From Candidatus Acetothermia bacterium (GTDB lineage Bacteria > Bipolaricaulota > Bipolaricaulia > Bipolaricaulales > Bipolaricaulaceae), in contig PXEP01000100.1 in NCBI GenBank assembly GCA_003566155.1, forward strand, positions 1 through 40,804: 40,804 nt of DNA. The letters are read 5' to 3'. The translations under genes were made by a program, and so were the position numbers. Shown in pieces: positions 32,981-39,046 of the stretch (within the stretch, counting starts at the first letter, position 1; each line of letters begins with the position of its first letter). Under the pieces are notes generated by a model. The model saw only the letters and a program-made list of their open reading frames with translations. It was not told where the DNA came from and ran no database searches.

Positions 32981-33005
32981 CGTCGCAGACAAGCTGCGAC
33001 GCTAC
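32981..33005 (-). repeat. Dispersed single REP copy in inverted orientation
   Basis: CGTCGCAGACAAGCTGCGACGCTAC = reverse complement of GTAGCGTCGCAGCTTGTCTGCGACG; one loop difference from array 1. Preceded by partial copies of CGTCGCAGA at 32951 and 32966. Confidence 0.85.
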
Positions 33006-33070
33006 ACTCCTCACTCCTCACTCCTCACTCCTCACTCCTCACTCCTCACTCCTCACTCCTCACTCCTCAC
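33006..33070. repeat. Tandem heptamer (ACTCCTC), nine full copies plus AC
   Basis: Read directly; 7-bp register unbroken from 33006 to 33068. Confidence 0.97.
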
Positions 33071-34395: not shown

Positions 34396-36813
34396 TCAGG
34401 GAGCAGCCGATTCCAAAGGTAGCGTGGTCCGTTTCTGGGGCCGCGCCCGCAGAGTCAACTCCGTGTTTTGCCCGGGCCGCAGCCGGATGTGGTACGGCTC
34501 CCGTTCCAGACGGTGTGGCGGTACAAGCTGGGGAAGCTTCACCTGCACTTCCCATACGCCCGGACATATCGGACCCACCCGGAAGCTGCCTTGACAATCG
34601 GTGTAAGTACGGTGTACGCGTTCTCCATCGGTGAGCAAGATGCGCGCCCCGGAAATGCCTCTTTCGTCGCCGACAGGACCGGGGCTGCCCGAGCGTGCCT
34701 CCGTATCGGTGACCACCCGCCCGGAGACCTCCGCTGATCCATGGAGGACCAACTCCACTTCGCTGACGGCGCCGGCTCGTACACGCACCGTGGTCGGACC
34801 CTCAGCGGGACACACACCCTGGGGCAAGCTCACCACCTCAAGCTCATACTCGCCCGGAGGAAGGGGCGGAAAACGGAAGACTCCATCTCCGCCAACCAGC
34901 GCCTTATTCCCTCCCAGCTTCAGGATCATGCCTTCGACCCCGTACCCGGAGCCTTGGATGTGCACCACCCCCTCTACCCGGCCTTGCACCTTGCGCAAGG
35001 GGAAGGGAAGCTCCGCGGGCATCTGCAATCCGAATTCGATCGCATCTAGCTCCACCCGCAAGAACAAGGACGACGCCCCAAGCGTAACCGTGCTTTCCAC
35101 TTCGGTTCCCGCCCTTGTCATATCCAACGCCACTTGAGCCCGTGCAGCGTCTCCCAAACGGAACCCGCCCTCCACCCCCCCACGCCAGCGCACCTCTCCC
35201 ACGGGCCCGCCCAACCGCGGAACCGAAAGCTCCCCGGTTACCCCCAGTTCCATACCACAGCAAAGGTCTACCTTGACCTGGCTGCTGGTAGACAGCGACC
35301 ACTGAGCGTCCGCCGCCGACAGTCCTTCGATCCGCTGTAGCTCGGACCGCACCGTCCAACTCCCGGAAGACCACACCGTCCCCCTGAGCGCTAAGTGCAA
35401 TCCCTCCAGACCATCCGTTCGCCAGACAACACCAGCCCGAGGCTGCAGACGGCCTCCCGCCCGCCACGAAAGCTCGGCCTCCATCGTCGGTTTGTCGTTC
35501 GTAATGCCTGAAGCCCACGCCACTTCCAACGTTGTGTCGGAGATGCTGACCCCAAACGAGAGCACACTTTGCATCCCCCACGTCATTCCGCCGGAGACGC
35601 TGCCAGCGTCTGAGCGGAACCGAAGGCGCACTGCGCCACCCTCCGGCGATAGCTGGCCCTCGAGCCATGTCTTGCCGCTCCAGAGCGCAGCCATCAGCGC
35701 CGCCTGGCCGGCGCGGCCACAGGACACGCGCGCGTGCAAACGCCGCGAGAGAAGCTGAAGCACCAATTGAATGTGCTCGGGCTGCCAGCGTACCCCTATT
35801 TCGTGGGGGGTTCCTGGTATCCGGTAGCGTGCCAGTACGTGCGAGTGTGCGCTTGACGATGTCCGGTCTAAGAAGCCGTGAACGAACAGCGGCTGCCGGT
35901 CGTAGACAAAGCTTGCTCGGCGTAGATACGTCTTGCCTTCGTTCATCTCGAGCGAGCCTTGCACATCGAGCTCTCCCGCACCTCCCAGCGGCCCAGCCGC
36001 TTCGACCCCGACCGTTCCCAGAAAACCTTGATCCGACAGACGAGCCGTCCAACGAAGGGCCCCAGGCAGAACCGGGTAGAGCTTACGCTGAACTTCCCGC
36101 GGCGGCGGAGGGATCACCGTGGTACGCACCGCTGCTGTGTCCAGTGGTTTCCCTCCGCCGAGGGTGCTCACAGTAACGGCCATTCGTCCCTGGTCCCCGG
36201 GAGAAGCACTGTCGGGCACGTAGTGATGGAGGCGCATCTCCGTACCGCCGCCGGCGGGGAGTCGCACAAGCTGCCTTGATGTACAGCATTTCCAATCCGA
36301 ACGCACCTGTAACACGAAGTCATCGGCCACGTTTCCGCGATTCACTATCTGTAGCCGATAACCAACACGTTCGCCTGGAGTTCCATGCCCGTCGCCGGGC
36401 AAGACAAGTTCGGCGTCCACGCTAGGACGCACCACCAGCTTTGCCTCCGCTTGTACGCTGCGCGCAACGCTATGCGCCCGAACAACCACGTACTGCACCC
36501 CATGAGCAACCGCTGAGGAAGCGAACACTGTAACCAGTATGGTCCGCGTCCCGCCGGACGGCACTGTTCGTCGTTCAGGGGCCGATAACTTGCGGATCCC
36601 CTCGGGCACGGAATAGGAAAGGTCTACCTCCGCGTATTCGTCTGCCGCGTTTGTCAGCACAAACGCCAGCGACACCGTTTCTGGAGGTGCCACGGGCCGC
36701 GGAGCTTCCGCGCTGTCCAGGGACACCCCGTCGGCCCTCGCCGGAGAGCCGATGACAAGGAGTATGACTGCACAGAGAAGGCTCCGCGGCCGCTGGCACC
36801 TCCCTCGTTTCAT
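34396..36813 (-). CDS. Secreted/outer-membrane beta-rich protein with N-terminal Ig-like domains, barrel-like middle and two C-terminal carboxypeptidase-regulatory-like domains
   Basis: Signal peptide MKRGRCQRPRSLLCAVILLVIGSPARA; GYRLQIVNRGNVADDFVLQV; GVEGMILKLGGNKALVGGDGVFRFPPLPPGEYELEV; ISGARILLTDGERVHRTYTDCQGSFRVGPICPGVWEVQVKLP. Confidence 0.75.
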   Translation of the reverse strand: MKRGRCQRPRSLLCAVILLVIGSPARADGVSLDSAEAPRPVAPPETVSLAFVLTNAADEYAEVDLSYSVPEGIRKLSAPERRTVPSGGTRTILVTVFASSAVAHGVQYVVVRAHSVARSVQAEAKLVVRPSVDAELVLPGDGHGTPGERVGYRLQIVNRGNVADDFVLQVRSDWKCCTSRQLVRLPAGGGTEMRLHHYVPDSASPGDQGRMAVTVSTLGGGKPLDTAAVRTTVIPPPPREVQRKLYPVLPGALRWTARLSDQGFLGTVGVEAAGPLGGAGELDVQGSLEMNEGKTYLRRASFVYDRQPLFVHGFLDRTSSSAHSHVLARYRIPGTPHEIGVRWQPEHIQLVLQLLSRRLHARVSCGRAGQAALMAALWSGKTWLEGQLSPEGGAVRLRFRSDAGSVSGGMTWGMQSVLSFGVSISDTTLEVAWASGITNDKPTMEAELSWRAGGRLQPRAGVVWRTDGLEGLHLALRGTVWSSGSWTVRSELQRIEGLSAADAQWSLSTSSQVKVDLCCGMELGVTGELSVPRLGGPVGEVRWRGGVEGGFRLGDAARAQVALDMTRAGTEVESTVTLGASSLFLRVELDAIEFGLQMPAELPFPLRKVQGRVEGVVHIQGSGYGVEGMILKLGGNKALVGGDGVFRFPPLPPGEYELEVVSLPQGVCPAEGPTTVRVRAGAVSEVELVLHGSAEVSGRVVTDTEARSGSPGPVGDERGISGARILLTDGERVHRTYTDCQGSFRVGPICPGVWEVQVKLPQLVPPHRLEREPYHIRLRPGQNTELTLRARPQKRTTLPLESAAP

Positions 36814-37607
36814 TCCACCTCCAGGGAGATATCCGTAGCCCAAACATGCTCATCCAGGTTGTCCACGATCAAGGCAACCAGATAGTTGCCGCTCTCCAGT
36901 CCGGATAGTCGGAGGTGGAAACGCACCGAACAACCGGGGAACACCCGCCGCCGCGCCGAATCGAACCTCCCCAGCGGTTCACCGGTCGGCTGATGAACCG
37001 CAGCCTGCACCACAGGGCGTAACCACCTCTGTCCTGTGTTGGCCAAATCGACCAGCAGCACAGTTTCGCCGTTCACCCTCCGGGTCCTCGTGGATAGCAT
37101 CTGCACAGCGCGCTCCCCACTGTCGCCGATGTGGGTGATCAGTTGAACGCCGTAGCCAATGCCCTGCCTTATCCTCACACCGTACCCCACGTCCACCTCT
37201 TCGTGCTCGGAGACAGGGTCCACCAGGACCACGCTCCAATAGGTTCCTGCAAGCTGGGGTTCGTCCGGCACCCGCACGGTATAAGCGATGTTGACGCTAC
37301 CCTCGGGGGCAACAGTTACGCGCCCCTCAGCAGGCTGTAACCTTATCCAGTCGGCATTGGAGCGCTCCTCCGACCCAGGCGGGGGATAACGGTTGTTGCC
37401 GTCCGCATCGAACAAGTAGTCGGCCCGTCTAATCTCTACTGCCGCCGGTTCCTCGCCTGTGTTGATGATCTCGATCGCCCCACGACAACGCTCGCCCTGG
37501 CGTAGCACGCATTCGTGGGTCAGATCGGGCACAACCAGCTGCCCTTGGGCCGCGGGGGCTAGCACTGCGGGCACAATGAAGGCCCACAACCAACGTGGAC
37601 AGCGCAT
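36810..37607 (-). CDS. Secreted Ig-like protein resembling periplasmic pilus chaperones (PapD-like, tentative)
   Basis: Signal peptide; IEIINTGEEPAAVEIRRADYLFDADGNNRYPPPG...NADWIRLQPAEGRVTVAPEGSVNIAYTVRVPDEPQLAGTYWSVVLVDP. Confidence 0.7.
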   Translation of the reverse strand: MRCPRWLWAFIVPAVLAPAAQGQLVVPDLTHECVLRQGERCRGAIEIINTGEEPAAVEIRRADYLFDADGNNRYPPPGSEERSNADWIRLQPAEGRVTVAPEGSVNIAYTVRVPDEPQLAGTYWSVVLVDPVSEHEEVDVGYGVRIRQGIGYGVQLITHIGDSGERAVQMLSTRTRRVNGETVLLVDLANTGQRWLRPVVQAAVHQPTGEPLGRFDSARRRVFPGCSVRFHLRLSGLESGNYLVALIVDNLDEHVWATDISLEVE

Positions 37608-37611
37608 GGTC

Positions 37612-38124
37612 TCACCCTTCCAGTAGGCGATAGGTGACCATAACGGGTGCGACCTGGCCTGCCTTGACCTCCCAGGGCACAGGATCAACCCTGTAGGTCA
37701 GATCAGCTGTATTGGAGCCTGTCTGGAGGATGCCGGTGATGAGGTCCATTTCGCTTGGCGCAACACCTCCTGTGTATATGTAGACCTCGCCCATCAGTTC
37801 TCCGTCGGAGCTCTCGAGATTGCTGGCCTCAACCCGCATGCCAAGCCAGCCCTGATAATGGCCCTCGATGGGTTCAGCGTGCACGGTCACTTTCCGTGCA
37901 GTGCCCAGGACATTCGACTTGTACGTGAGGCCCCCCTCAAGATGATGGCTTCTTTCGCCCTCCGGACTCGCCGTGAGGAAGACCTCTGATGTTGACAGCA
38001 TGACCTTATGCGCTGACTCGATCTCCACGTACACCTCTTGCTCAGCGCTGGCCAACTCTTCTCCCACAGCCCCGCCGACCGCCAGCAGGCTTCCTGCAAC
38101 CGCGACCATCACGATCCGTCTCAT
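37612..38124 (-). CDS. Small secreted beta-rich protein, possible pilin/coat-like subunit
   Basis: Signal peptide MRRIVMVAVAGSLLAVGGAVGEELASA; C-terminal LTYRVDPVPWEVKAGQVAPVMVTYRLLEG. Confidence 0.7.
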   Translation of the reverse strand: MRRIVMVAVAGSLLAVGGAVGEELASAEQEVYVEIESAHKVMLSTSEVFLTASPEGERSHHLEGGLTYKSNVLGTARKVTVHAEPIEGHYQGWLGMRVEASNLESSDGELMGEVYIYTGGVAPSEMDLITGILQTGSNTADLTYRVDPVPWEVKAGQVAPVMVTYRLLEG

Positions 38125-38201: not shown

Positions 38202-38230
38202 ATCCTAGCATGGGAATGTGGCTCTGTCAA
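38202..38230 (-). promoter_or_regulatory. Near-consensus sigma-70 promoter TTGACA-N17-TAGGAT with extended -10, driving the three-gene secreted operon
   Basis: Minus strand TTGACAGAGCCACATTCCCATGCTAGGAT. Confidence 0.8.
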
Positions 38231-38287
38231 GTGATGGGTTTTGCAGTACAACGCGCGTCGTGGTTCGCCACCGGAGCAGATCAGCTG

Positions 38288-38293
38288 TACAAT
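38288..38293 (+). promoter_or_regulatory. -10 box TACAAT, 9 nt before ATG 38303
   Basis: CAGCTGTACAATCTCGGTGACATGCGCC. Confidence 0.4.
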
Positions 38294-38302
38294 CTCGGTG
38301 AC

Positions 38303-39046
38303 ATGCGCCTGCTACATGTGGCGATTGCCCTCGTGATATCGGTGGGGTCACCCCACGTAGCGCGGACGGCTGATGAGACGCTCCCTTCGTTCAAAACAGG
38401 CTTGCAGCTGGCCGAGCTAACCTTGGCTGTGGGCAAAGCAACCTCGCTGCCTGAGGTGTACGCTGCGCTTGGCAGCCAGGTGCTGCGGACCTACTACCCG
38501 GATGACCTGGCCGAAGACCTGTCCGGGGGAGGAGAGGTGGCGCGTCGGTGGCTCCAGGAAACGCCGGAAGGTGCTTCGTGGGTGGAACGGCTGTTCGATG
38601 TCCGGGCGGCGCTCGAGAAGGCGGAACAGCTGCTCGGCGACCTCCCTCAGCAGAGGTTATCTTCGCTTTCCGAACAGAATCTCGCCCCAACCATGGAATC
38701 TCTGCGCACAGTACGGAAGACCGTTGAATCGTTGGACGAGGCACTGCACGAGAAACTCCTCACCGACGCGGTCCGCTGGGAGTTCCAGATCGCGTTTCTA
38801 TCTCGCTCGCTTGCCGACGAACTCCCGTTTCCCCTTTCCATAACCGAGGAGGAGATTCGTTTCTTGGCTGAGACCATCCCTTCGGACCTTCCTGAGAACG
38901 CCCGCCAGAGCGTGGAAGAGTTATTGGATTTGCTCCCTGTGCAAGCCGGACGGGGAGCGGTGCAGTGGACAAACCCCGAACAACGAGAACACGCAGCACA
39001 GCTAGCCCGTTCCATACTCATGACGCTGGAGTCGGAATACGAATGA
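38303..39046 (+). CDS. Secreted alpha-helical protein of unknown function
   Basis: Signal peptide MRLLHVAIALVISVGSPHVARTA; helical remainder; no recognised family. Confidence 0.75.
   Translation: MRLLHVAIALVISVGSPHVARTADETLPSFKTGLQLAELTLAVGKATSLPEVYAALGSQVLRTYYPDDLAEDLSGGGEVARRWLQETPEGASWVERLFDVRAALEKAEQLLGDLPQQRLSSLSEQNLAPTMESLRTVRKTVESLDEALHEKLLTDAVRWEFQIAFLSRSLADELPFPLSITEEEIRFLAETIPSDLPENARQSVEELLDLLPVQAGRGAVQWTNPEQREHAAQLARSILMTLESEYE

Follow-up and report, generated by a model that had tools for sequence, protein, structure and literature searches.

The window analysed here is the whole 40,804-nucleotide stretch of DNA, which derives from a metagenome-assembled genome of the Bipolaricaulota (1.93 Mb, 83% complete). 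Towards one end it carries three genes on the minus strand, referred to as A, B and C (Table 1). These were singled out in a preliminary description, made from the letters alone, as a tightly packed set of signal-peptide genes resembling a chaperone/usher locus, and the packing is as described: A and B are separated by 4 nt, B and C overlap in the tetranucleotide ATGA, and all three products begin with what appears by eye to be a signal peptide. The operon is real, since its gene order is conserved across genomes (see below). The ribosome-binding site of A is GGAGGAGG, and the Ig-like protein for which chaperone-like phrasing had been quoted is B, whose sequence includes NADWIRLQPAEGR...GTYWSVVL.

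Table 1. Features of the A-B-C operon and its immediate surroundings in the window
Feature	Position	Strand	Description
Gene A	37612-38124	-	170 aa, secreted, beta-rich, C-terminus VTYRLLEG; proposed pilin/WxL-like subunit
Gene B	36810-37607	-	265 aa, secreted, two Ig domains, WxLIP family; proposed periplasmic chaperone
Gene C	34396-36813	-	805 aa, secreted, predicted usher-like outer-membrane protein
C residues 30-233	36115-36726	-	N-terminal Ig pair, B-related
C residues 248-603	35005-36072	-	24 modelled amphipathic strands, putative barrel
C residues 609-792	34438-34989	-	Two CarboxypepD_reg/SdrD_B-like sandwich domains
Sigma-70-like promoter	38230-38202	-	TTGACA-17-TAGGAT with extended TG; plausible
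Divergent ORF	38210-39046	+	278 aa; likely start near 38303; signal peptide (by eye)

The near-consensus promoter that had been placed in front of A is present as a sequence, with 10 of 12 consensus matches; since the scanned region contains two promoter-type sites against 1.0+/-0.9 in shuffled sequence, it is plausible, though not significant by itself. The divergent open reading frame lacks a Pfam match and is conserved next to the operon in a genome of the same genus (38% identity over 245 aa). It is possibly an accessory gene, with a product that is probably secreted. Elsewhere in the window, a perfect tandem array of CACTCCT (9.4 copies, positions 33005-33070) lies between clpP and a deoA-like gene, and two related sets of tandem repeats of about 100 bp, with GGCGCACACAAGGTGCGCC, occupy positions 41-426 and 895-1122.

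Conservation of the operon in Bipolaricaulota

B is present in 51 and C in 55 of 60 related genomes. Gene order was read in detail at about 40 loci, and nearly all of them contain one to three secreted A reading frames followed by B and then by C; thus the triplet co-occurs in other genomes, which was one of the checks proposed for the chaperone/usher interpretation. At almost all of these loci the A reading frames upstream of B end in an alternating strand (VTYTLTAP, for example). In two loci, L072 (2916-3425) and L073 (5176-5688), genes that match the A profile (E 3e-27) follow C instead of preceding B.

The genome from which the window derives contains a second copy of the operon, of a longer type, which is divided between two contigs: A and B are on C119, and C is on C12. 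Trees of B and of C resolve the same two paralogous types, the window type and the rest, with full support in each case. The identical and fully supported split indicates that the operon was duplicated and has been inherited as a unit. The named genomes that encode close relatives of the second-copy B are Candidatus Bipolaricaulota/Acetothermia; the exceptions are records labelled as uncultured bacteria and a single Thermotoga-labelled contig. The match scores of that contig (DYGJ01000008.1, locus L113, labelled Thermotoga sp.) are identical to those of Acetothermia UBA7521 (L114), and its label is probably mistaken.

An outer membrane is likely in these organisms, because Omp85 is encoded in 19 of 20 relatives; the window's own genome, at 83% completeness, contains no Omp85 match. 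Hao et al., working from a closed genome, found the envelope type of Bipolaricaulota hard to settle, and genes for fimbriae or pili were not reported from that genome (PMC6092417).

Predicted folds and relatives of the three proteins

As a single sequence, B finds no usable match in Pfam, NCBIfam or the PDB. The profile of the B family, in contrast, matches the solved structures of EfmWxLIP1 over both domains (E 1.7e-11), and by this profile comparison B is homologous to WxLIP along both of them. The Pfam WxLIP_PGBD model, scanned against 60 genomes, points to the same relationship in that nearly all of its matches are B-type genes, including the second copy in the window's own genome. However, only one match lies above the curated cut-off and half of the control genomes are also positive, so that more weight attaches to the profile-to-structure match. 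The controls with weak WxLIP_PGBD matches include Thermotoga maritima, Thermus composti and Deinobacterium chartae, which suggests that B-like proteins may be more widely distributed in diderm Terrabacteria.

By sequence, B is kin to WxLIP and does not resemble PapD: a scan of 40 genomes with the PapD_N model (PF00345) gave nothing over its cut-off, and no B gene of the operons was matched. Pilus chaperones (PapD/FimC) complete their subunit by a strand, in the manner predicted for WxLIP proteins. In published models of the latter, a DUF916 strand inserts into WxL and completes the WxL sandwich (PMC10599100). The C-terminal hydrophobic helix is absent from 29 B proteins, in which the two flagged segments are internal; lacking the membrane anchor of WxLIP, B should be soluble. 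Long-type B genes (L095:4027-5046, L081:3484-4500 and others) encode a C-terminal dockerin-like EF-hand module, with Pfam Dockerin_1 in 12 of 29 (best E 5.5e-9); the module is missing from the B of the window.

C is recognized by Pfam through its Ig-like domains and its C-terminal CarboxypepD_reg/SdrD_B domains (E 4.4e-11), and most members of the family also contain PKD domains. By hhalign (98%, 192 columns) the Ig pair at its N-terminus is a relative of B, and the drift of the iterated B profile into C reflects this real similarity. The AlphaFold2 model of C, built with 35 homologs (mean pLDDT 77.9), agrees with the anatomy read from the sequence: a tandem Ig pair, a barrel-like middle of 24 strands, and two sandwich domains. 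Hydrophobic and polar residues alternate in the modelled barrel strands with a score of 3.57, as against 1.57+/-0.24 in shuffles (0 of 5000 as high).

In a Foldseek comparison of the C model with the PDB, FimD ushers take ranks 1 to 7 (E as low as 1.9e-13; alignments of about 870 columns), PapC appears lower down, and no other family of outer-membrane barrels is among the 50 matches listed. The TM-score to FimD is 0.27, with a large rmsd, and the barrel middle is modelled at a pLDDT of only 45-65, for which reason the match is to be read as topological rather than metric. C is predicted to have an usher-like fold, and the usher-type resemblance noted earlier holds at this level; its domain plan, with the B-like Ig pair in front and no visible plug insertion, is a different one. 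In the barrel of the window's C model no insertion corresponding to a plug domain is seen, so that the pore would be without a known gate. The Usher model (PF00577) matches none of 40 genomes even at E 10, and the E. coli control is positive.

Sequence searches with A in Pfam, NCBIfam and the PDB return no usable match; near-hits to DUF4873 and to a biotin ligase (Pfam/NCBIfam) were dismissed as chance. The best PDB match of the A profile, TLP-2 (9ikk, 16 chains), is not significant at E 0.37 and has an S-x-V-x-W-x-L stretch in common with it; no publication on TLP-2 was found. The A protein of the second copy in the same genome is modelled confidently, with a pLDDT of 88 that rises to about 95 in the mature domain, and its ranks 1 to 35 in the PDB are all subunits of chaperone-usher systems (CfaB, CS20, FimG, PapE, FimF, PapA, FimA, FimI and Csu), with Foldseek TM-scores of 0.34-0.54. 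This paralogous A is predicted to adopt a pilin fold of the incomplete Ig type.

The pilin fold suspected for the small protein is thus borne out by the second-copy A, in a model that does not extend to the window's own A. The latter evolves fast: it has a clear ortholog in the same genus only, and no sequence relatives were found outside that genus. Against the A profile it scores E 0.02, and hhalign gives 89% over the two C-terminal strands. Because of this divergence, its proposed role draws mostly on where the gene lies, on the signal peptide and C-terminal strand of the product, and on the plan of the family. Across the family, 18 of 39 A proteins carry a WxL-like first motif, S-N-x-x-W-x-L, as against 3.1+/-1.7 in shuffles, and the second motif is mostly Y/F-T-L. 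Most A proteins were picked by their C-terminal motif, the frequency of which is therefore no evidence; the first motif played no part in the selection. It is absent from the window's A, and WxL models (Pfam PF13731) match no A protein over the cut-off.

A probable donor-strand assembly pathway and competing interpretations

Our analysis suggests that the operon probably encodes a chaperone-usher-like pathway for donor-strand surface assembly, with a chaperone of the WxLIP family and an unusual usher. A, an incomplete beta-sandwich subunit, would be exported by Sec into the periplasm, where B would cap and stabilize it by lending a beta-strand. C would form an usher-like barrel in the outer membrane and would take in B:A complexes through its periplasmic, B-related Ig pair; from there the A subunits would traverse the barrel, and donor-strand exchange would link them into a fibre or an adhesin complex. 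Where an operon has two or three A genes, it would also supply a tip subunit, probably the type of about 310-345 aa with an extra N-terminal domain.

The operon has the subunit-chaperone-usher gene order of chaperone-usher pili (FimA/G-FimC-FimD, PapA/E-PapD-PapC and the archaic Csu system), its relatives are diderm, and the likeness extends to the pilin-like fold of the A paralogue and to the 24 modelled strands of C, best matched by FimD. It differs from them in that its proteins match none of the Usher, PapD_N and pilin sequence families, in agreement with the remark in the preliminary description that no unmistakable PapD or FimD signature could be discerned by eye; in that B is WxLIP-like; and in that C carries a B-like Ig pair ahead of the barrel and CNA-B/PKD-type domains after it, with no plug visible. 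The best reading of the models is that the operon would function like a chaperone-usher pathway, yet it is no member by sequence, since the usher and PapD models fail. The chaperone/usher-type interpretation given to the locus at the outset is supported, and the tests proposed with it came out mostly in its favour.

The WxL/WxLIP clusters of Bacilli (EfmWxLIP1, DUF916-DUF3324) are the second point of comparison. The operon shares one component with them, B, homologous over both tandem Ig-like domains, and it also encodes small and larger secreted beta partners, many with the WxL-like first motif. It is without their membrane anchor (the C-terminal helix of WxLIP) or a recognizable WxL domain, and it adds an usher-like barrel in hosts that are diderm. 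One could regard the operon as a diderm WxL/WxLIP complex, a static adhesive in which A is WxL-like, B is WxLIP-like and C is a mere outer-membrane anchor, with A neither polymerized nor passed through C. The homology of B, the excess of the first motif in A proteins, and the pairing of a small and a large A in one operon, which resembles that of small and large WxL proteins (PMC9772566), all agree with such a complex. We nevertheless consider it unlikely: the first fold matches of the A paralogue are pilins and those of C are ushers, B lacks the WxLIP membrane helix, and no A protein scores above the cut-off of the WxL model.

It is more doubtful still that C is an unrelated Ig-bearing outer-membrane barrel (a porin, an adhesin stalk or a nutrient receptor) whose likeness to FimD would stem from a common combination of barrel with sandwich domains, with A and B as surface partners. 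The low TM-scores and large rmsd, the missing plug and the lack of an usher sequence match would fit, but FimD holds the first seven ranks in a list of 50 matches that includes no other family of outer-membrane barrels, and A points independently to chaperone-usher subunits. That the locus is an ordinary chaperone-usher operon, archaic or classical, which has merely diverged past recognition is hardly credible. Its gene order is the same and its predicted folds are similar, and Cyanobacteria and Deinococcus-Thermus are reported to have archaic systems (PMC4654587); yet the nearest relative of B is WxLIP and not PapD, C has its B-like Ig pair and no visible plug, and the usher model finds nothing in 40 genomes even at E 10.

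If the donor-strand assembly pathway is correct, Bipolaricaulota have a means of building surface fibres where the closed-genome study saw no pili genes (PMC6092417), and usher-type export reaches beyond the known usher sequence families. That the operon links WxL and chaperone-usher systems is a real possibility, and it offers a testable bridge between chaperone-usher pili and WxL proteins, about whose function little is known; in the open-access literature (subscription journals lay outside the search) no paper was found that relevantly joins the two. Rather tentatively, A and B might be taken to unite Gram-positive WxL/WxLIP and Gram-negative chaperone-usher pili in one donor-strand superfamily, in which diderm Terrabacteria would keep the usher-bearing form and the monoderm WxL cluster would be what remained once the outer membrane was lost, or the derivation would run in the opposite direction.

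Related operons on Deinococcus plasmids

A query of plasmids with the type-2 B revealed the A-B-C order on four Deinococcus plasmids, from D. deserti, D. psychrotolerans, Deinococcus sp. AB2017081 and NW-56; the window's C as query against plasmids gave no match. On these four, profile E-values range from 1e-46 to 1e-52 for B and from 1e-38 to 1e-54 for C, and one A matches the A profile at E 3.5e-8. The proteins are homologous and arranged as in the window, and D. deserti (VCD115, plasmid 2, DEIDE_RS15110-15120) is of the window type: its B is 32% identical to that of the window end to end, and both trees place it alongside the window type (support 100/99 for B and 86/83 for C). Three of the four plasmids differ in having an extra gene of about 180 aa between B and C, which in one of the three cases matches the A profile. 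Since these carriers are culturable, the operon is directly testable in Deinococcus.

Current annotations of the Deinococcus proteins are hypothetical, carboxypeptidase-like or FimB/Mfa2. The last of these, a FimB/Mfa2 fimbrial subunit, is given to D. deserti B (NC_012529.1, 88292-89062; L148:6923-7693) on a marginal Pfam score, 21.7 bits against a cut-off of 21.2; kinship to B is far stronger.
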